Shown: positions 37,185 to 54,921 of the stretch, piece after piece
Position numbering within the stretch: position 1 is the stretch's first letter
How the letters are laid out: each line of letters opens with the position of its first letter
From: Methylotenera mobilis JLW8
Lineage (GTDB): Bacteria; Pseudomonadota; Gammaproteobacteria; Burkholderiales; Methylophilaceae
DNA length: 64,000 bases
Direction: 5' to 3'
Assembly: GCF_000023705.1 (NCBI RefSeq)
Contig: NC_012968.1
Location: 2,232,001 to 2,296,000 of the forward strand
Position numbers and translations under genes: made by a program
Notes under the pieces: generated by a model
Databases searched by the model: none
The model's input: the letters and a program-made list of their open reading frames with translations, nothing else
What the model was told of the DNA's origin: nothing

Positions 37185-37442
37185 GCATGGCATGAATTTA
37201 ATTGCCAATTGAAAAATCAGCATGCAGCAGCAATGGTAACGACTTAGCTAGCTGCTGCTGATTAACCTGGTGCTGATTAGCTAGGTACGCAGACTAAGCA
37301 CCTTGCGATTGCTCCGCAAAGCTATTACTATCCAGTCCGGTTAGTATCCAATCTATGGGGAATTAGCAGCCTCCCCGTTTCAAGACACTCACGTCCAAGG
37401 CCTGCTCAAAATCTTATGGCATAATGCCTTAGAGGAGAAGCT

Positions 37443-38795
37443 ATGGACGCTCATAACAATAACAATCTAAACTCAGCCCCTAACCCAATACCGTTTGTAG
37501 AAGCGGTTTTTTACTGGCTCAAGCTTGGCTTTATCAGCTTTGGCGGTCCCGCCGGGCAAATCGCCATCATGCACAACGACTTAGTTGAAAAGAAGCGCTG
37601 GATTTCAGAAAAGCGCTTTTTACATGCACTGAACTATTGCATGCTACTGCCAGGCCCAGAAGCGCAGCAACTGGCTACCTACATCGGCTGGCTCATGCAC
37701 CGCACTTGGGGCGGTATCGTGGCTGGCACCTTATTTTTTCTGCCCTCGTTCTTTATTCTGGTCGGCCTAGCCTATATTTATATGGCCTATGGCGCGGTGC
37801 CTGCGGTTGCTGGGGTGCTGTATGGCATTAAACCAGCGGTAGTTGCCATTGTTATGTTTGCCGCGTATAGAATCGGCCTACGCACCCTCAAAAACAAGGT
37901 CATGTGGGGCATTGCTGCTGCAGCCTTCTTGGCAATCTTTGCGCTTAAACTACCCTTCCCTGTCATCGTACTGACGGCAGGCCTGATAGGTTATATCGGC
38001 GGCAACTATTACCCCAAGTATTTTAAATTAGGCGGTGGTCACGGCGCTGCACAGAAAAGTTTTGGCGCAGCCATTATTGATGATGACACACCAACCCCGG
38101 CGCATGCATTATTTAGCTGGCGTAGACTACGGCAAGTGGCCATCGGCGGCATCACACTATGGTTGCTTGCCATGGCTATACTCATGGCCAATTATGGCTG
38201 GCAAGGCGCCTTTACGCAGATGGGCTGGTTTTTCACCAAAGCCGCGTTGCTGACTTTTGGCGGCGCTTATGCCGTGCTGCCTTATGTTTACCAAGGGGCG
38301 GTGGAACACTACCAATGGCTGAACCCTACACAAATGATAGACGCATTAGCGCTGGGGGAAACCACGCCTGGCCCGCTGATTATGGTGGTGACTTTTGTCG
38401 GCTTTGTCGGCGGCTGGGTGACGCAGACATTTGGCGCTGACGCACTTTTCGCCTCGGCCTTTGTTGCCGCAACAGTGGTCACTTTCTTTACGTTCCTGCC
38501 TAGTTTTGTATTTATCTTACTAGGTGGCCCCTTCATCGAAACCACGCATGGCAATCTTAAATTTACGGCGCCGTTAAGCGCGATTACAGCAGCGGTGGTC
38601 GGCGTGATCGTGAACTTAGCGCTGTTCTTTGCCTACCATGTATTTTCGCCACAAGGACTAACGGGCGCAATAGACTGGCTCTCAGTTGCACTGACCGCTT
38701 TAGCTAGTGTTGCGATATTCAAGTACAAAGCCAATGTTATTTTAGTAATCTTAGCTGGGGGTATACTAGGCATGGCCTGGCAACTACTTGCGTAA
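37443..38795 (+). CDS. chrA: Chromate transporter ChrA
   Basis: 450 aa with two homologous halves of the CHR family and about ten membrane helices. The signature FISFGGPAGQIAIMH opens the first half and LLTFGGAYAVLPYVY the second; ALALGETTPGPLIMV is also typical. ChrA pumps chromate out. GGAG lies seven bases before the ATG. No ChrB regulator is near, so regulation is not evident. Confidence 0.93.
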   Translation: MDAHNNNNLNSAPNPIPFVEAVFYWLKLGFISFGGPAGQIAIMHNDLVEKKRWISEKRFLHALNYCMLLPGPEAQQLATYIGWLMHRTWGGIVAGTLFFLPSFFILVGLAYIYMAYGAVPAVAGVLYGIKPAVVAIVMFAAYRIGLRTLKNKVMWGIAAAAFLAIFALKLPFPVIVLTAGLIGYIGGNYYPKYFKLGGGHGAAQKSFGAAIIDDDTPTPAHALFSWRRLRQVAIGGITLWLLAMAILMANYGWQGAFTQMGWFFTKAALLTFGGAYAVLPYVYQGAVEHYQWLNPTQMIDALALGETTPGPLIMVVTFVGFVGGWVTQTFGADALFASAFVAATVVTFFTFLPSFVFILLGGPFIETTHGNLKFTAPLSAITAAVVGVIVNLALFFAYHVFSPQGLTGAIDWLSVALTALASVAIFKYKANVILVILAGGILGMAWQLLA

Positions 38796-44681: not shown

Positions 44682-44711
44682 AATGATAACTGTTCTCATT
44701 TACAATTGCAA
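44682..44711 (-). promoter_or_regulatory. Fur box over the promoter of the siderophore receptor
   Basis: The 19-mer AATGATAACTGTTCTCATT (44682-44700) is Fur-like. On the minus strand TTGCAA (44711-44706), 17 bases and TATCAT (44688-44683) make a promoter whose spacer and -10 lie inside the box. It might also influence the divergent exporter genes. Confidence 0.75.
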
Positions 44712-44833: not shown

Positions 44834-46336
44834 GTGCTAAAAACTCATATAAACATGCGCTTATGTGTAGCCAGCCTATTACTGACTGCCAACCAAGCTT
44901 TTGCTGAAGGTAGCATTTGGTACCAGGATCAACATGCCCAACAAAACGATCCGCTGCAAACCCAGTTTTTTGCGTTGCCCAAACTGACAGATGATTATCA
45001 GTCACCTGACGGACCGTGTGCTCAGCAGCCATCTACTGCAGACTTTGCCAAACCGCTCACATTGGCTGAAGTTGCCAATGCCAGCCTGTGCAACAACCCG
45101 CAAACCAGTGAGGTGTGGGCTAGTGCGCGCGTGCAGGCCGCACAACTAGGCATTGCCAAATCAGCATACCTACCCTCATTAACCGACAATATTGGCGGCA
45201 ACCTTAGCGTGTTGCACCCGGAATCTGCTACCCGAAGCAACCCCAACCTGAACTTAAGCAATAGTCTGGTAGCTAGCTACCTGTTATATGACTTTGGGAA
45301 CCGCAATGCCAATTTAGAAAGTGCGCGTCAATTATTGCTCTCAGCCAGTGCAAGCCAAAGCAGCACAGTGCAGAGTGTGCTGCTCGCCGCCACCGTGGCC
45401 TTCTACCAAGTGCAAGCTAAGATTGCTGCGGTAGATGCGGCATTAGAAGCAGAGCGCGCCAGCAGTGAGAGTTTTAAAGCCGCCGAGGCAAGATACAACG
45501 CCGGTGTAGCTACCCCCGCAGATAAATTGCAGGCGCAAACCGCTTATGCACAACTCACGCTGACCCGCATTACTAACGAAGGTAATTTACAAACCGCGTA
45601 CGGCACCCTAGCTAACGTGATGGGTTTACCTGCTAATCAGAAAATAAGTCTAGTGAGCAGTACAGCCACAACACCTGCCAACATGCCTACATCCGCTAGC
45701 ATACTAAGCGATGTCAACTTACTGATAGCGCAAGCCAGCGCAAGCCGCCCAGACCTGATTGCCAGCGAGGCGCAGCTTAAAGCAGCCCAAGCCAGCATTG
45801 ATGCCAGTAAAGCCGCGGCAAAACCTACCATCTCGGTTTCAATGTCTAACAACCTACAGGATGGCTCCAGCTTGGCAACCAGCAACAACTCTACTTTGGG
45901 GCTGACGGTAGCAATCCCATTATTTAGCGGCTATGCGCCAACTTATAAAATCCGTGCAGCCGAAGCAACTGCAGACTTACGCGCCGCACAACGCGACCGC
46001 TTACGCTTACAGATTTCATTGGATGTATGGACCGCCTACCAGAATCTACGCACCGCACTGCAATCCGTCAGTGCTAGCGAGGCGTTGCTAGCCAGTGCTG
46101 AACAATCTTACAAAGTTGCACTCGGGCGTTACAAAGCCGGTGTCGGCAACATTATTGACACACTGAATGCGCAAAGTGCATTAGCCAATGCACAGCAACA
46201 GAAGATTCAGGCCGCACTTAACGCCAACATTACTCGCGCTACGCTCGCCCAAGCCATGGGGTCCTTAGATAATGCCATGATCCAATCACTGCCTAGCGCC
46301 AACGTTAATGCACTGCCTGCCTCCAATACCCCATAA
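44834..46336 (+). CDS. TolC-family outer-membrane efflux protein
   Basis: 500 aa with a signal peptide ending in NQAFA and two OEP repeats of long helices (NLESARQLLLSASASQ; ALGRYKAGVGNIIDTLNAQ). It forms an outer-membrane/periplasm duct. The start may be GTG 44834 or ATG 44855; neither has a clear ribosome-binding site, but both retain the signal peptide. It is 15 bases upstream of the membrane-fusion gene and divergent from the Fur-controlled receptor. Confidence 0.9.
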   Translation: MLKTHINMRLCVASLLLTANQAFAEGSIWYQDQHAQQNDPLQTQFFALPKLTDDYQSPDGPCAQQPSTADFAKPLTLAEVANASLCNNPQTSEVWASARVQAAQLGIAKSAYLPSLTDNIGGNLSVLHPESATRSNPNLNLSNSLVASYLLYDFGNRNANLESARQLLLSASASQSSTVQSVLLAATVAFYQVQAKIAAVDAALEAERASSESFKAAEARYNAGVATPADKLQAQTAYAQLTLTRITNEGNLQTAYGTLANVMGLPANQKISLVSSTATTPANMPTSASILSDVNLLIAQASASRPDLIASEAQLKAAQASIDASKAAAKPTISVSMSNNLQDGSSLATSNNSTLGLTVAIPLFSGYAPTYKIRAAEATADLRAAQRDRLRLQISLDVWTAYQNLRTALQSVSASEALLASAEQSYKVALGRYKAGVGNIIDTLNAQSALANAQQQKIQAALNANITRATLAQAMGSLDNAMIQSLPSANVNALPASNTP

Positions 46337-50530: not shown

Positions 50531-50950
50531 CTACTTACTCTCGCTTACAAAGCCTAATTTACTCACTCCTGCATTTTGTGCATCTGCCATCAGCTCAGCC
50601 AAGAGCTGATAACGCGTTTCTTTGTCTGCACGAATATTAAGCTCAGGCTGCGGTTTCTTTTGCGCCACTTCCTGCAATTTCACTTTTAACTCACCATCCA
50701 CCAGCGGGGCATCATTCCAGTACATTTTACCTGCGGCATCAATCGCAATTGAAATCACTTCAGGTTTTTCAGGGATAGGCTGACTGCTGGTTTGTGGCAA
50801 ATCAATCTTCACCGCATGCGTGAGTAAAGGTGCTGTGATAATAAAGATCACCAACAACACCAGCATCACATCCACCAATGGCGTGGTATTAATCTCAGAC
50901 ATAGGCGCTGAGTGCGAGGTAACCCCTGCGTTATTGCCTGACCCTATCAT
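50531..50950 (-). CDS. exbD: Biopolymer transport protein ExbD
   Basis: 139 aa with one N-terminal membrane helix bearing the conserved Asp (NTTPLVDVMLVLLVIFII) and a periplasmic domain. With ExbB it energises TonB. It overlaps exbB by four bases and ends the hemP-tonB-exbB-exbD unit. Confidence 0.95.
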   Translation of the reverse strand: MIGSGNNAGVTSHSAPMSEINTTPLVDVMLVLLVIFIITAPLLTHAVKIDLPQTSSQPIPEKPEVISIAIDAAGKMYWNDAPLVDGELKVKLQEVAQKKPQPELNIRADKETRYQLLAELMADAQNAGVSKLGFVSESK

Positions 50951-51699
50951 GCTGATGCACCTACTACATGCATCGTTTGTTGCACTGCATCATGTGGCTT
51001 TGCATCACGCTTAGTATTAATTACCGCACCGGTAATAATCAAAGTATGCAACTCGTAGCCAAATTTTTCTAACTCTGCTGATAACGCACGGTTGCTACGC
51101 ACAATTGCGTTGTAAGCCAGCACAGCAGGAATCGCTACTGCCAAACCAAACGCCGTCATAATCAAAGCCTCACCTACCGGGCCTGCCACTTTATCTAAAG
51201 TAGCCTGACCGCTTAAGCTGATGCTTGCCAATGCGTGGTAAATACCCCACACCGTACCAAACAAACCCACAAACGGAGACACACTACCCACAGATGCCAA
51301 CACGGTAAGACCACCCTCCATGTTTGCTGCTTCTTCAGTGATGCTGCGGTTCATGGCACGTGCTACAAACTCGTCTTGTGCCACAATGTCTACTGCCTTT
51401 GCAGCATGCGATTTATGATGCTCAGCGGCTTGCACTGCTTTTTCTGCCAATCTCGCCATACCTGTTGCTGAAACCTGTTGACCTTGTTTTACCGCAGCAG
51501 CCAAACTTGGCGCTTGCCAAAATGCAGCTAGGTAAGCTTTATAAGCACTACGTGTACGCCAAACAGCGATGCTTTTTGTCACAATAAAATACCAGCTAGC
51601 CACTGACATGACTAACAAGATCAAAGCCACCAGCATAGAAACTGGGCCGCCAGCCGTGATAAATTCCCAACTATTAAATTCATACCCGTTTTGCATCAT
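50947..51699 (-). CDS. exbB: Biopolymer transport protein ExbB
   Basis: 250 aa with three membrane helices and the SVGSVSPFVGLFGTVWGIY signature shared with TolQ and MotA. It forms the proton channel of the TonB motor. GAGG precedes ATGATG. It follows tonB by 54 bases. Confidence 0.95.
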   Translation of the reverse strand: MMQNGYEFNSWEFITAGGPVSMLVALILLVMSVASWYFIVTKSIAVWRTRSAYKAYLAAFWQAPSLAAAVKQGQQVSATGMARLAEKAVQAAEHHKSHAAKAVDIVAQDEFVARAMNRSITEEAANMEGGLTVLASVGSVSPFVGLFGTVWGIYHALASISLSGQATLDKVAGPVGEALIMTAFGLAVAIPAVLAYNAIVRSNRALSAELEKFGYELHTLIITGAVINTKRDAKPHDAVQQTMHVVGASA

Positions 51700-51753: not shown

Positions 51754-52584
51754 CTAACTATTTAGTGAAAAATTGATAGGCACTAATACGTACGCGCTCA
51801 TAGGCTTATTGCTGCGCTTTGCTGGTACAAAGCTCCATTTTTTAACCGCTTCAACTGCAGCTTCATCTAACTTGCTGTGACCACTGCTTCTGTCCACTTG
51901 TACAGTGGTAGCTTTACCATCTTCTGACACTAATACCTTGAGCAATACTTTACCCTGTTCGCCCATACGTCGTGCGGACATCGGATAAGTTGGAGCGGGG
52001 TTATTCAAATAAGCTGCACCAAAACTCGGCGGCTCTATCGCTGGCTCAGGCACCGCTTTTGCTTTAGCTACCTCCGCTACGGTTTCCGTAGCCTTCGCAG
52101 CAGGCTGCGCCTCAGTTGGGGTGTTCTCAGCAACAACTGGAGTTTCTACCTTCTCGGTTGTTACTGGCTCTTTTTGTTCAATTTTTCTGGCCGCATCATC
52201 GTTGATCACGCGTGGTTGCTCTACTACTTTTTGCGGCTTAACCACGGCTTTTTTCACTACCGGCTTTTGCTCTACCACTGGCAACGGTTTTTCTACCGGC
52301 ATATTTTCCACATGGCTCACCAGGCTCACCATCATCGGTTCTGGCGGCTTTACCGGCTCCACGGTTTCTGGTTTAGCATAAAGAATACCAACCAAGCCCG
52401 TCATATGCAGCGCGACCACCAAAGCCAACATCCTGTAAGAAACTGTTCGCTCTTCGGCAGACGTTGCATTAGCTGCTTTCAGCGGAGCAGATTTTACATT
52501 TAACTTATTAGCAGCTTCCACACTACGCACAGCAGGGTCCAAGAAGAAGTGTGGATTCGCCACCAGCTCTGAATTTGACACCAT
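51754..52584 (-). CDS. tonB: Energy transducer TonB
   Basis: 276 aa. A cytoplasmic stretch, one membrane helix at about residues 50-70 (MLALVVALHMTGLVGILYA), a Pro/Glu/Lys/Val-rich periplasmic spacer and a C-terminal TonB domain (APTYPMSARRMGEQGKVLL, DEAAVEAVKKWSFVPAK). It passes energy to outer-membrane receptors such as the Fiu-like one nearby. A strong AGGAGG site lies before the ATG. Confidence 0.95.
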   Translation of the reverse strand: MVSNSELVANPHFFLDPAVRSVEAANKLNVKSAPLKAANATSAEERTVSYRMLALVVALHMTGLVGILYAKPETVEPVKPPEPMMVSLVSHVENMPVEKPLPVVEQKPVVKKAVVKPQKVVEQPRVINDDAARKIEQKEPVTTEKVETPVVAENTPTEAQPAAKATETVAEVAKAKAVPEPAIEPPSFGAAYLNNPAPTYPMSARRMGEQGKVLLKVLVSEDGKATTVQVDRSSGHSKLDEAAVEAVKKWSFVPAKRSNKPMSAYVLVPINFSLNS

Positions 52585-52651: not shown

Positions 52652-52822
52652 TTACTTCGTTAAAATCAACTTACCTTGGTTGGTGAGTCTTAACCGGTAA
52701 TCCTCACCTACATGCTTAATCACCAACTCACGTGCGCCAGCAAACAAAGTCTCACTCGTGATTTCTTTCACAGGAGAAAGCGGCTCTGGTTTAGGTGCAC
52801 TTTTCTTGTCAGTAAACATCAT
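52652..52822 (-). CDS. hemP: Hemin uptake protein HemP
   Basis: 56 aa (or 55 from the second ATG of ATGATG). The C-terminus DYRLRLTNQGKLILTK is the HemP/HmuP hallmark. Members are small proteins encoded in iron- or haem-regulated operons and are reported to act as activators of haem-uptake genes in Rhizobiales and Burkholderia. Here it is the first gene behind a Fur-controlled promoter and upstream of tonB-exbB-exbD. No haem receptor or hmu transporter is in the window. Confidence 0.88.
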   Translation of the reverse strand: MMFTDKKSAPKPEPLSPVKEITSETLFAGARELVIKHVGEDYRLRLTNQGKLILTK

Positions 52823-52895: not shown

Positions 52896-52926
52896 AATGA
52901 TAATTGTTATCATTTAGATTTGTCAA
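52896..52926 (-). promoter_or_regulatory. Fur box over the hemP-tonB promoter
   Basis: AATGATAATTGTTATCATT (52896-52914) has perfect 8-bp arms. On the minus strand TTGACA (52926-52921), 18 bases and TATCAT (52902-52897) place spacer and -10 inside the box. Confidence 0.85.
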
Positions 52927-52980
52927 TAAATTTATTAGCTAATTAACCGCTATGTTATTGATTTTATTTAATTGAGTGTG

Positions 52981-53253
52981 TCAGTGAACGTTATAATTAA
53001 CCGCTGTTTGCTTGGCATACACAGCCTGCTCTTGTTGATATAACGTCAACCTAGTCGCCGCATCTGCCAGCAGCATTTTTAACGTGTTCAGTGCGCTACC
53101 CTCTATACGCAAACTAATAGCACCAATCTCTAGTTCAGCTACGCTACAGCCTTCACAAAACACAATGCTGCCTATTTCATTTTTTGATAGCAGCACGCGT
53201 GAGCATGTCGCTTCATTGTTCATGGCTAAGTCCGGTTTATGATTATTTTCCAT
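52981..53253 (-). CDS. Small protein of the iron operon, paralogue of 54658-54864
   Basis: 90 aa with two Cys in VFCEGCSVAELEIG... (shown here in part). The segment AELEIGAISLRIEGSAL followed by a helix matches VELEIGDTSLRLEARNF in the 68-aa protein encoded at 54658-54864, so the two are paralogues. It is the last gene of the Fur-controlled unit, eight bases after the HemP-like gene. No function is known to me. Confidence 0.7.
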   Translation of the reverse strand: MENNHKPDLAMNNEATCSRVLLSKNEIGSIVFCEGCSVAELEIGAISLRIEGSALNTLKMLLADAATRLTLYQQEQAVYAKQTAVNYNVH

Positions 53254-53260
53254 GTCGCAC

Positions 53261-53482
53261 CTATTTAGTGAGTATCAATTTATTTTGTTTGGTCACGCGT
53301 AAAATGTAAGTCTCGTTTTCGTGGTCTATCATGACCTCTTTCACGTTGGTAAATAACCTATCGCTGTGCAAGCGCTTAATCCTTGTAATCTTAATATCCT
53401 CTTGGGTATGCTCCGAGTCTGTCACAATTGCTATATCAAAACTCATGTGCTCTTTAGAAGTTAAATTCGTAATAATTTTCAT
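53261..53482 (-). CDS. Second HemP-like protein
   Basis: 73 aa. Its C-terminus ETYILRVTKQNKLILTK matches the HemP end at 52652-52822, while the N-terminus is longer and different. ATG 53482 is chosen because GGGTGGG lies about five bases upstream; a GTG at 53491 is in frame. It lies between the S4 paralogue and the 90-aa protein. A role parallel to HemP in iron or haem control is an inference. Confidence 0.75.
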   Translation of the reverse strand: MKIITNLTSKEHMSFDIAIVTDSEHTQEDIKITRIKRLHSDRLFTNVKEVMIDHENETYILRVTKQNKLILTK

Positions 53483-53650
53483 GATGCCCACCCAATTGAT
53501 ACGTCAATGAAAAAGATGGCCGGCTGACATAAGCGTTTAAGCCTAATGCGACCATTAAATGACCAATTACGATCAAGGAGACGCATGTTTCCATGCAGTT
53601 ACTACATTTAAGCCACTGTTAGGAGCGACCTAAATTCTGTTGCCACCGCG

Positions 53651-54268
53651 CTACACGCGGTTAGCGTAATACTCAACCACCAATTGCACATCCACCGGGA
53701 ACGGCACATCGGTAATGGCAGGTAAGTGTGCAACTTTAGCCAATTGCTTATCTGCTTCCCAAGCCAACCACTCCGGACGCTCTAATGCTGGCTGTTTAAT
53801 CGTTTCTACCACCATCGGGATATTCTTACTTTTCGCCTTAATGCTAATTTCATCCCCTACATTTAGACGAATCGAAGGAATATTGGCTGGCTTGCCATTC
53901 AGCATCAAATGCCCATGACTGACCAACTGACGCGCTGCAATCACGGTAGGTGCAAAGCCGGCGCGAAATACCACGTTATCCATGCGGCGCTCCAGCAGCT
54001 GCAACAAGCGCTCACCGGTTGGCTCTTTACCTTTACGCGCATCCAAAATCAATCTGCGCATTTGTGTTTCGGTCAAACCATAGTTAAAGCGGATTTTCTG
54101 TTTCTCCAGCAATTTCACACCAAAGTCAGAGCGGCGCTTGCGTGATGCCTTATTGCCATGCTGCCCTGGTGGCGTTGGGCGTGCCTCTATGGTTTTACGT
54201 GATAACCCAGGCAAATCAATACCTAGTGCGCGCATCACTTTTAATCTAGGGCCAATAAATCGTGACAT
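53651..54268 (-). CDS. rpsD: Ribosomal protein S4 paralogue without N-terminal cysteines
   Basis: 205 aa with a full S4 fold: PGQHG near residue 34, FGVKLLEKQKIRFNYGL, the S4 RNA-binding domain (LERRMDNVVFRAGF, ARQLVSHGHLMLNGKPANIP) and C-terminal VQLVVEYYANRV. It has no Cys in the N-terminal region where zinc-binding S4 forms carry four. It is not in a ribosomal-protein operon (where rpsD normally sits between rpsK and rpoA) but in a Fur-controlled unit of small proteins. It may replace the main S4 when metal is scarce. Confidence 0.9.
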   Translation of the reverse strand: MSRFIGPRLKVMRALGIDLPGLSRKTIEARPTPPGQHGNKASRKRRSDFGVKLLEKQKIRFNYGLTETQMRRLILDARKGKEPTGERLLQLLERRMDNVVFRAGFAPTVIAARQLVSHGHLMLNGKPANIPSIRLNVGDEISIKAKSKNIPMVVETIKQPALERPEWLAWEADKQLAKVAHLPAITDVPFPVDVQLVVEYYANRV

Positions 54269-54326
54269 CTTAATTCCTTATCTATTTGATATTAATTAAC
54301 TTATTGCAATGATTTATTGCAATAAA

Positions 54327-54626
54327 TCATTGCAAAGTTCCGTGTGTTTCCAGCATCCAGCTATCATCACTACCGTACTCGCTTACGATACGCTCCCATT
54401 GCTTGACCAAGCGCTCAGCAATGTCTTCAATTAACTTTGTCTCTGCATATTCTGGCGCAGTCAGTTTCTTAGCTAAATCACCGGCCAGTATTGCCAACTC
54501 TTGCGTAGGTTTAAGTGCGTACTGCGTGGCAACGCAGCAGATTGCCGCCATTAGCTCTTTCGCAGTTGGTAACTCTGGGTCAAATAACTCGCTAGGTGTC
54601 TGTAATGCTGAAACTTGTTTTTGCAT
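54327..54626 (-). CDS. Hypothetical protein of the iron operon
   Basis: 99 aa, acidic and mostly helical, with two adjacent Cys (AAICCVATQYAL) and the end DDSWMLETHGTLQ. It lies between the 68-aa protein (31 bases) and the S4 paralogue (58 bases) on the same strand, so it is probably co-transcribed. I do not recognise a family. Confidence 0.65.
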   Translation of the reverse strand: MQKQVSALQTPSELFDPELPTAKELMAAICCVATQYALKPTQELAILAGDLAKKLTAPEYAETKLIEDIAERLVKQWERIVSEYGSDDSWMLETHGTLQ

Positions 54627-54657
54627 ATTTTTGTTCTCTTATTTCTTACTTTTACGC

Positions 54658-54864
54658 TTACGCCTGATGCAACTCAGTTTGCATCACCAATTTCGCTACC
54701 GCTTTGCGCATCATTTCACTCATCATAAAAAAATTGCGCGCTTCAAGCCGTAAAGAAGTATCACCAATCTCCAGCTCCACAATGTCTTTGGCTTTGTTGT
54801 ACAGTACTTTGCAATCTTCATTGCCGACGAGTTTTGCTTGGCTAATAACTAATTGCTTGCTCAT
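54658..54864 (-). CDS. Small first protein of the Fur-controlled S4 operon
   Basis: 68 aa. VELEIGDTSLRLEARNFFMM followed by a helical SEMMRKAVAKLVMQ tail, paralogous to the 90-aa protein at 52981-53253. GGAG precedes the ATG. It lies about 28 bases below the -10 of a Fur-box promoter, so it should be strongly induced in iron starvation. No function is known to me. Confidence 0.72.
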   Translation of the reverse strand: MSKQLVISQAKLVGNEDCKVLYNKAKDIVELEIGDTSLRLEARNFFMMSEMMRKAVAKLVMQTELHQA

Positions 54865-54891
54865 GATTTACTCCAATCGAGAAGTTAATTA

Positions 54892-54921
54892 AATGATAAT
54901 GATTCTCATTTAATAAGTCAA
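54892..54921 (-). promoter_or_regulatory. Fur box over the promoter of the S4/HemP-like operon
   Basis: AATGATAATGATTCTCATT (54892-54910) is a good Fur-like 19-mer. On the minus strand TTGACT (54921-54916), 17 bases and TATCAT (54898-54893) give the same promoter layout as at 44.70 and 52.91 kb. Confidence 0.85.

Follow-up and report, generated by a model that had tools for sequence, protein, structure and literature searches.

A cysteine-free ribosomal protein S4 paralogue in a putative Fur-controlled operon of Methylotenera mobilis: a likely iron-sparing replacement for housekeeping S4

The stretch of the Methylotenera mobilis JLW8 chromosome analysed here ("the window": 64,000 nucleotides, NC_012968.1, positions 2,232,001 to 2,296,000 of a 2.55 Mb chromosome in a single contig) contains a gene for a cysteine-free paralogue of ribosomal protein S4, designated S4', in the midst of iron-uptake genes. 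These genes form two adjacent units (Table 1). The first consists of a Fur box followed by p68-p99-S4'-HemP-A-p90, and the second of a Fur box followed by HemP-B-TonB-ExbB-ExbD. An earlier reading, made from the sequence alone, had listed the five genes of the first unit behind one Fur-box promoter, and all of these elements were found as placed. The two HemP-type proteins that it assigned to the adjacent units were also recovered, both with scores above the PF10636 cut-off. The listed start of HemP-A is GTG, and translation may in truth begin at an in-frame ATG (53482). Iron-uptake operons of hemP and tonB-exbB-exbD have the same gene families and Fur-box promoters as those seen here. Unlike such operons in general, however, the present unit includes members of the p68/p90 and p99 families as well as a ribosomal protein.

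Table 1. Positions of the features of the S4' locus in the window, and of the S4' leader in loci of relatives
Feature	Positions	Strand	Remarks
Fur box and sigma-70-like promoter, first unit	box 54892-54910; promoter 54921-54893	-	TTGACT-17-TATCAT; box overlaps -10
p68	54658..54864	-	68 residues; p90 paralogue, without Pfam or NCBIfam match
p99	54327..54626	-	99 residues; small protein, predicted helical
S4'	53651..54268	-	205 residues; Cys-free C-(IV)-type uS4 paralogue; Pfam Ribosomal_S4 and S4, TIGR01017
HemP-like protein A	53261..53491	-	76 residues; PF10636, 60.6 bits (cut-off 25)
p90	52981..53253	-	90 residues; conserved C17, C33, C36 (CEGC); weak DUF6686 match under the cut-off
Fur box and promoter, second unit	box 52896-52914; promoter 52926-52897	-	TTGACA-18-TATCAT; box overlaps -10
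HemP-like protein B	52652..52822	-	PF10636, 64.2 bits (cut-off 25)
TonB	51754..52584	-	PF03544
ExbB	50947..51699	-	TolQ/ExbB family, PF01618
ExbD	50531..50950	-	ExbD/TolR family, PF02472
S4' leader	L041:6745-6900, L042:6838-6998, L046:7376-7530 (-), L138:6864-7000, L140:6857-7000, L250:6855-7016

Three places in the window (44682, 52896, and 54892) match the Fur-like pattern AATGATAATNATTNTCATT with at most three mismatches. This corresponds to six matches when both strands are counted, against a chance mean of 0.29 for the 64 kb. The strict 19-mer GATAATGATAATCATTATC gave no match in the window at up to three mismatches. It should be mentioned that, in the scan for sigma-70-like promoters as a whole, the number of promoters was no higher than in shuffled sequences. 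The third Fur-like site (44682-44700) lies between a gene resembling those of TonB-dependent receptors (44543-42342, minus strand) and an efflux-type outer membrane gene (44834-46336, plus strand), both of which were named by eye.

S4' is a full-length S4 protein, which matches PF00163 at 67.4 bits, PF01479 at 54.4 bits, and TIGR01017 at 218.7 bits (cut-off 177.2). A single further S4 is encoded in the genome, within the rpsM-rpsK-rpsD-rpoA cluster (gene names from sequence). The cysteines of this housekeeping S4 are at positions 9, 12, 26, and 31, and their spacing matches that of Thermus thermophilus S4 in the alignment. Pairs of S4 proteins with and without the four-cysteine motif (C+ and C-) were described by Chen, Roberts, and Luthey-Schulten in 2009, including those of Nitrosomonas europaea and Sorangium (PMC3087516). 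S4' resembles their C-(IV) paralogues, which are Cys-free and lie outside the alpha operon, with a C+ S4 inside it: it lacks the four-cysteine motif, has the PGQHG motif, and is encoded outside the alpha operon, which holds the C+ copy. The four-cysteine site of T. thermophilus uS4 holds an Fe4S4 cluster, as confirmed by long-wavelength data (PMC6555806) and also described in PMC10450194. Since the cysteine spacing is the same, the C+ S4 of the present bacteria presumably carries an Fe4S4 cluster as well.

A tree of 90 S4 proteins placed S4' and C+ S4 in separate groups, each supported at 100/100. S4' therefore did not arise as a copy of rpsD; together with the identity of only 76 of 202 positions between S4' and the C+ S4 of the same genome, the two groups rule out a recent duplication. 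The S4' group also holds S4 proteins of Myxococcota, of an Oligoflexales metagenome-assembled genome (MAG), and of others, and S4' was likely acquired by transfer. The window copy is 98% identical to S4' of Methylotenera oryzisoli. The ratio of nonsynonymous to synonymous substitution rates (dN/dS) was 0.016-0.032 against five relatives, synonymous sites being saturated or nearly so. The set of S4' loci amounted to 102, certain genomes being represented twice, of which 98 could be parsed; 96 of the 98 have no cysteine in the first 45 residues, and L200 and L205 carry one.

The second S4 of genomes with S4' was of the C+ form in every case read. Of 36 genomes with at least two S4 matches, this applies to L208-L237 (30/30) and L240; in the remaining five, three of which are Sorangium, the second S4 was not read. 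It also applies to L256-L259 (4/4, although L257 is probably a genome counted before) and to 16 of the 18 genomes with both forms in a search of 121 genomes, the other two not having been read. The Azoarcus MAG BE2011_69_25 (L177, L187) has two different S4' genes in addition to a C+ S4, with three S4 matches in G158.

S4' was found at an identity of at least 62% in 23 of the 121 genomes searched, the own genome included, and 18 of the 23 also gave a second S4 match. The sequence-only reading had staked its proposal on the occurrence of the gene set in related genomes, and the set is indeed present in relatives. Among the 22 relatives, tonB-exbB-exbD lies downstream of S4' on the same strand in 13, and p99 lies upstream of S4' in 17. 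Outside the Methylophilaceae, S4' adjoins hemP in Dechloromonas (L161), Uliginosibacterium (L162 and L165), and L252, and adjoins tonB-exbBD on the opposite strand in Azoarcus (L192, L203). In L176, feoB and the gene of a TonB-dependent receptor are within about 3 kb of S4', and a receptor gene is at a similar distance (up to about 3 kb) in L187 and Nitrosomonas L148. No iron gene was found among the tested neighbours of S4' in L156, L188, and L195. These cases are examples, not rates, since 30 of 172 neighbouring open reading frames were scanned, chosen mostly by receptor-like size. In Azospira oryzae, a gene of the MotA/ExbB family (L167:7623-8156) begins directly 3' of S4'.

In other words, S4' is accompanied by iron genes, either in a tonB/hemP operon or near hemP, feoB, a TonB-dependent receptor gene, or tonB-exbBD. 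One might suppose that S4' entered an iron operon by chance transfer, as a passenger whose control is physiologically meaningless. Its patchy occurrence, with S4' in 11 of the 300 genomes surveyed in the order at E <= 1e-60, and its horizontal movement fit such an origin. However, the iron genes around S4' stand in several different gene orders, the family has kept the Fur boxes, and S4' is freed from Fur in genomes with no other S4, as described below. A meaningless association is therefore hardly credible.

Fur-like sites were sought in the 800 bp upstream of S4' at a score of at least 14/16, in locus groups chosen after the survey of S4 copies. The Fur pattern had been loosened after use of the strict 19-mer, which marked the same places in most loci of genomes with both forms, but for which controls often scored equally high. 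In the Methylophilaceae with both forms, 28 of 29 loci have a Fur-like site, against 36 of 1328 controls, certain of which are other real Fur boxes. The loci of Nitrosomonas and gammaproteobacteria all have one (4/4, controls 0/167). None was found upstream of S4' in five loci of genomes with S4' as the only S4 (controls 4/235) or in 23 Myxococcota-type loci (controls 0/881). The box thus lies on a promoter and is conserved in relatives, as would be expected for a member of the Fur regulon; the overlap with a promoter was seen in the window only. Fur presumably acts on both boxes of the window.

The association with zinc was considered in the same loci. S4' might be an ordinary C- paralogue that spares zinc and stands in an iron operon by happenstance, the C+ site holding zinc in these bacteria. 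Chen et al. treat the C+ and C- forms of S4 as zinc and non-zinc forms (PMC3087516), and the uS4 site is still termed a Zn-finger in PMC6555806. However, the Zur box upstream of the gene, which characterizes Zur-controlled zinc-sparing paralogues, was not found for S4': Zur-like sites (at least 11/14) occurred upstream in 0 of 29 loci, against 35 of 1328 controls, and none was found near the window operon, whereas the Fur boxes are conserved. In addition, Chen et al. reported no Zur sites near S4 paralogues (PMC3087516), and T. thermophilus uS4 holds Fe4S4 in the same structural work that retains the older term (PMC6555806). The L31 and L36 genes of the own genome are single-copy, so that zinc-type spares of these two are absent; other zinc ribosomal proteins were not searched. 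Zinc sparing is therefore unlikely. S4' would be comparable to Zur-controlled C- paralogues, such as those of S14, S18, L28, L31, L32, and L33 (PMC3087516), in being a metal-free paralogue that, under a metal sensor of the Fur family, takes the place of a metal-binding ribosomal protein at low metal supply. It differs from them in having a Fur-like box, iron-uptake neighbours, and a Thermus homologue with Fe4S4, not zinc.

Genomes in which S4' is the only S4 found give further information on its role. These are G052, G060 (Methylobacillus arboreus), G066, M. glycogenes, M. rhizosphaerae, and G193; G052, G060, G066, and G193 are listed as 100% complete. The first five have an alpha operon of the order rpsM-rpsK-rpoA-rplQ, from which rpsD is missing. 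The S4' genes of these five form one clade (98/98) nested in the group of genomes with both forms, which means that the C+ gene was probably lost once in this lineage. Loss of C+ S4 has been described for Methylobacillus flagellatus (PMC3087516). Four of the five have a Fur box with a score of 17/20 between S4' and p90-tonB; for G052, the 14 kb fetched yielded neither p90 nor tonB. G193, which belongs to the genus of G060, came from the survey of the order after this pattern had been set down, and fits it: no second S4 was found, the alpha operon is without rpsD, and a Fur-like site is absent upstream of S4' and present before p90-tonB. As a result, a Fur-like site lies downstream of S4' and ahead of p90-tonB in five of the six genomes. 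A Fisher test of upstream sites (28/29 against 0/6) gave 4e-6, but the six genomes are kin, so that this amounts to about one event. Within the Methylophilaceae, predicted Fur boxes upstream of S4' thus track the presence of the C+ S4.

In place of the Fur box, the first five genomes have a conserved TATAAT-type element upstream of S4', seen by eye, and a conserved leader with hairpins, in which four pairs change on both sides. A model built from the five leaders found the leader in G193 and nothing else in 55 sources. The leader gave no Rfam family at the gathering cut-off; it is perhaps an autoregulatory S4 binding site. G017 and G023 were not counted as having S4' alone, because rpsK was not found either and the assembly probably lacks the cluster. 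Methylophaga L160, the Thauera MAG L178, and Azoarcus L191 gave a single S4 match, but rpsK was not found in them either, and they were likewise left out of the count.

Given six genomes in which no other S4 was found, S4' can serve as the only S4 of a cell, on the evidence of gene content in these relatives and not of the window copy. This bears on the possibility that S4' is not a protein of the ribosomal subunit but regulates the iron operon, for example as an S4-like antiterminator or mRNA binder. S4 proteins have regulatory roles, and S4' deviates from housekeeping S4 at 24 of the 70 columns in which the latter is invariant to at least 95%. Such an extraribosomal role is nevertheless very improbable, since S4' is the sole S4 found in six genomes, four of them listed as 100% complete, and since in these genomes S4' appears to be outside Fur control and to have a leader resembling those of autoregulated ribosomal protein genes. 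The sequence-only reading had offered ribosome remodelling and a signalling role as alternatives for a ribosomal protein in an iron-starvation operon. Remodelling gains support from the sequences, namely from the six genomes with S4' alone and the Fur box in 28 of 29 loci, and signalling remains without support. The Fe4S4 site of the housekeeping S4 would provide the reason for such remodelling, a connection that the sequence-only reading, although it recorded the lack of cysteine in S4', had not drawn.

These observations suggest that S4' probably takes the place of the housekeeping S4 under Fur control and thereby spares iron. In cells with ample iron, the S4 of the alpha operon with its C9-C12-C26-C31 site would be in use, and Fur would repress both p68-p99-S4'-hemP-p90 and hemP-tonB-exbB-exbD. 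When iron is poor, Fur would release both units, so that iron uptake is raised and the Cys-free S4' is produced. S4' would then enter the ribosomes, and assembly of the 30S subunit would be freed from the need for an iron-sulfur cluster. The iron link would also account for the lack of Zur sites near S4 paralogues in the work of Chen et al.

The same anatomy is compatible with a role in damage tolerance, in which oxidants or nitric oxide destroy the cluster of the C+ S4 and derepression by Fur signals a damaged iron economy instead of scarcity. Oxidative stress also inactivates Fur. The recognized genes of the locus, however, are hemP, tonB, exbB, and exbD, with no oxidant defence among them, and this explanation seems improbable.

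Several observations weigh against the replacement of housekeeping S4 by S4' under Fur. An Fe4S4 cluster in S4 is known from one thermophile, and the site was earlier called a Zn-finger. The genomes with S4' alone are close kin and probably reflect a single evolutionary event. Within the genus, the search gave no S4' for 40 of 52 genomes, many of which are incomplete. G061 (L054) has both S4 forms, yet neither an upstream Fur-like site nor p99 in its locus. Fur-like sites were found in just 4 of 20 Rhodocyclales-like loci (controls 16/871), and, among five further loci outside the Methylophilaceae, in L255 and not in L251-L254. In three Sorangium loci (L186, L194, and L196), no Fur-like site was found in the 800 bp ahead of S4', although a second S4 is present; this second S4 is 55-56% identical to the C+ S4 of M. 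mobilis, and its cysteines were not read. Finally, a Chromatiales MAG (L155/L241) has an alpha operon that lacks rpsD, and yet a Fur-like site (14/16) is retained at -93 relative to S4'. S4' is the sole S4 found in this MAG, which is perhaps a second, independent replacement.

The small proteins of the operon were also compared. The sequence-only reading had taken the 68- and 90-residue proteins for paralogues, and the profile-profile comparison agrees (probability 98%, E 2.8e-13). Its further proposal of a duplicated module holds in part: p68 and p90 are homologous and two HemP genes are present, but p68 was found in just 8 of the 22 relatives (none in 14), and no HemP gene adjoins p68. The combination of p68 and two HemP genes was seen in five of the 22 relatives (L034-L038); the contig of L039 ends short of that point. 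For p68, dN/dS was 0.03-0.08 against three relatives. The named relatives of p90/p68 (best 120 of 398) and of p99 (best 120 of 217) are hypothetical proteins, mostly of Methylophilaceae. Against DUF6686 (PF20391), 21 of 39 members of the p90 family gave a match at E <= 0.5, the best being 1.5e-5, and one Methylotenera relative (P0051) is named DUF6686 in a source. The window p90 itself scored 17.4 bits, below the cut-off of 23.9. In a Polyangia MAG, a weak match to the p90 family (L200:5365-5667; 6.5e-5) lies about 1.3 kb from an S4'-type gene.

The model of p90 has four strands and a long helix (predicted local distance difference test score, pLDDT, 81; predicted template modelling score, pTM, 0.56), and that of p99 is helical (pLDDT 75; pTM 0.60). 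Neither model gave a PDB match at E <= 0.001, and assignment of a function to p90 and p99 from the fold was abandoned for want of a significant match. The p99 profile matched in 41 of 108 loci. Among these are 28 of the 29 loci from Methylophilaceae that have both forms, as well as L148 of Nitrosomonas and L154 of a gammaproteobacterium. It matched in none of the loci of the six genomes with S4' alone, of the Chromatiales MAG, or of Rhodocyclales, where p99 may lie elsewhere. This distribution is consistent with p99 being a partner of S4' in the exchange. It is a more tentative and somewhat doubtful proposal that bearers of an S4 with Fe4S4 switch under Fur to a cluster-free S4 with p99 as the dedicated partner of the switch.

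Elsewhere in the window, a chrB-b RNA (RF03086) was found at 37356-37405, directly upstream of a gene at 37443 that resembles chromate transporter genes and was named by eye.

Pairs of C+ and C- S4 and zinc-controlled exchanges of ribosomal proteins were known already. A link between Fur and S4 was not found in print by full-text searches of the open-licence literature. The account of Chen et al. concerns zinc economy, unlike the link to Fur and iron seen here; its main text gave no match to "iron" or "tonb", and its 12 matches to words beginning with "fur" were not viewed singly (PMC3087516). Term look-up showed that "ribosomal" and "rpsD" are absent from the main text of the paper on N. europaea Fur (PMC3050691) and from that of the M. 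xanthus paper (PMC9973013). If the proposed replacement is true, the composition of the ribosome would be tied to the iron economy of the cell, and these bacteria would provide a setting in which the Thermus-type Fe4S4 cluster of S4 matters. Methylobacillus would then be a natural case in which the change was made permanent, and, as methylotrophs are grown in the laboratory, the switch would be directly testable.

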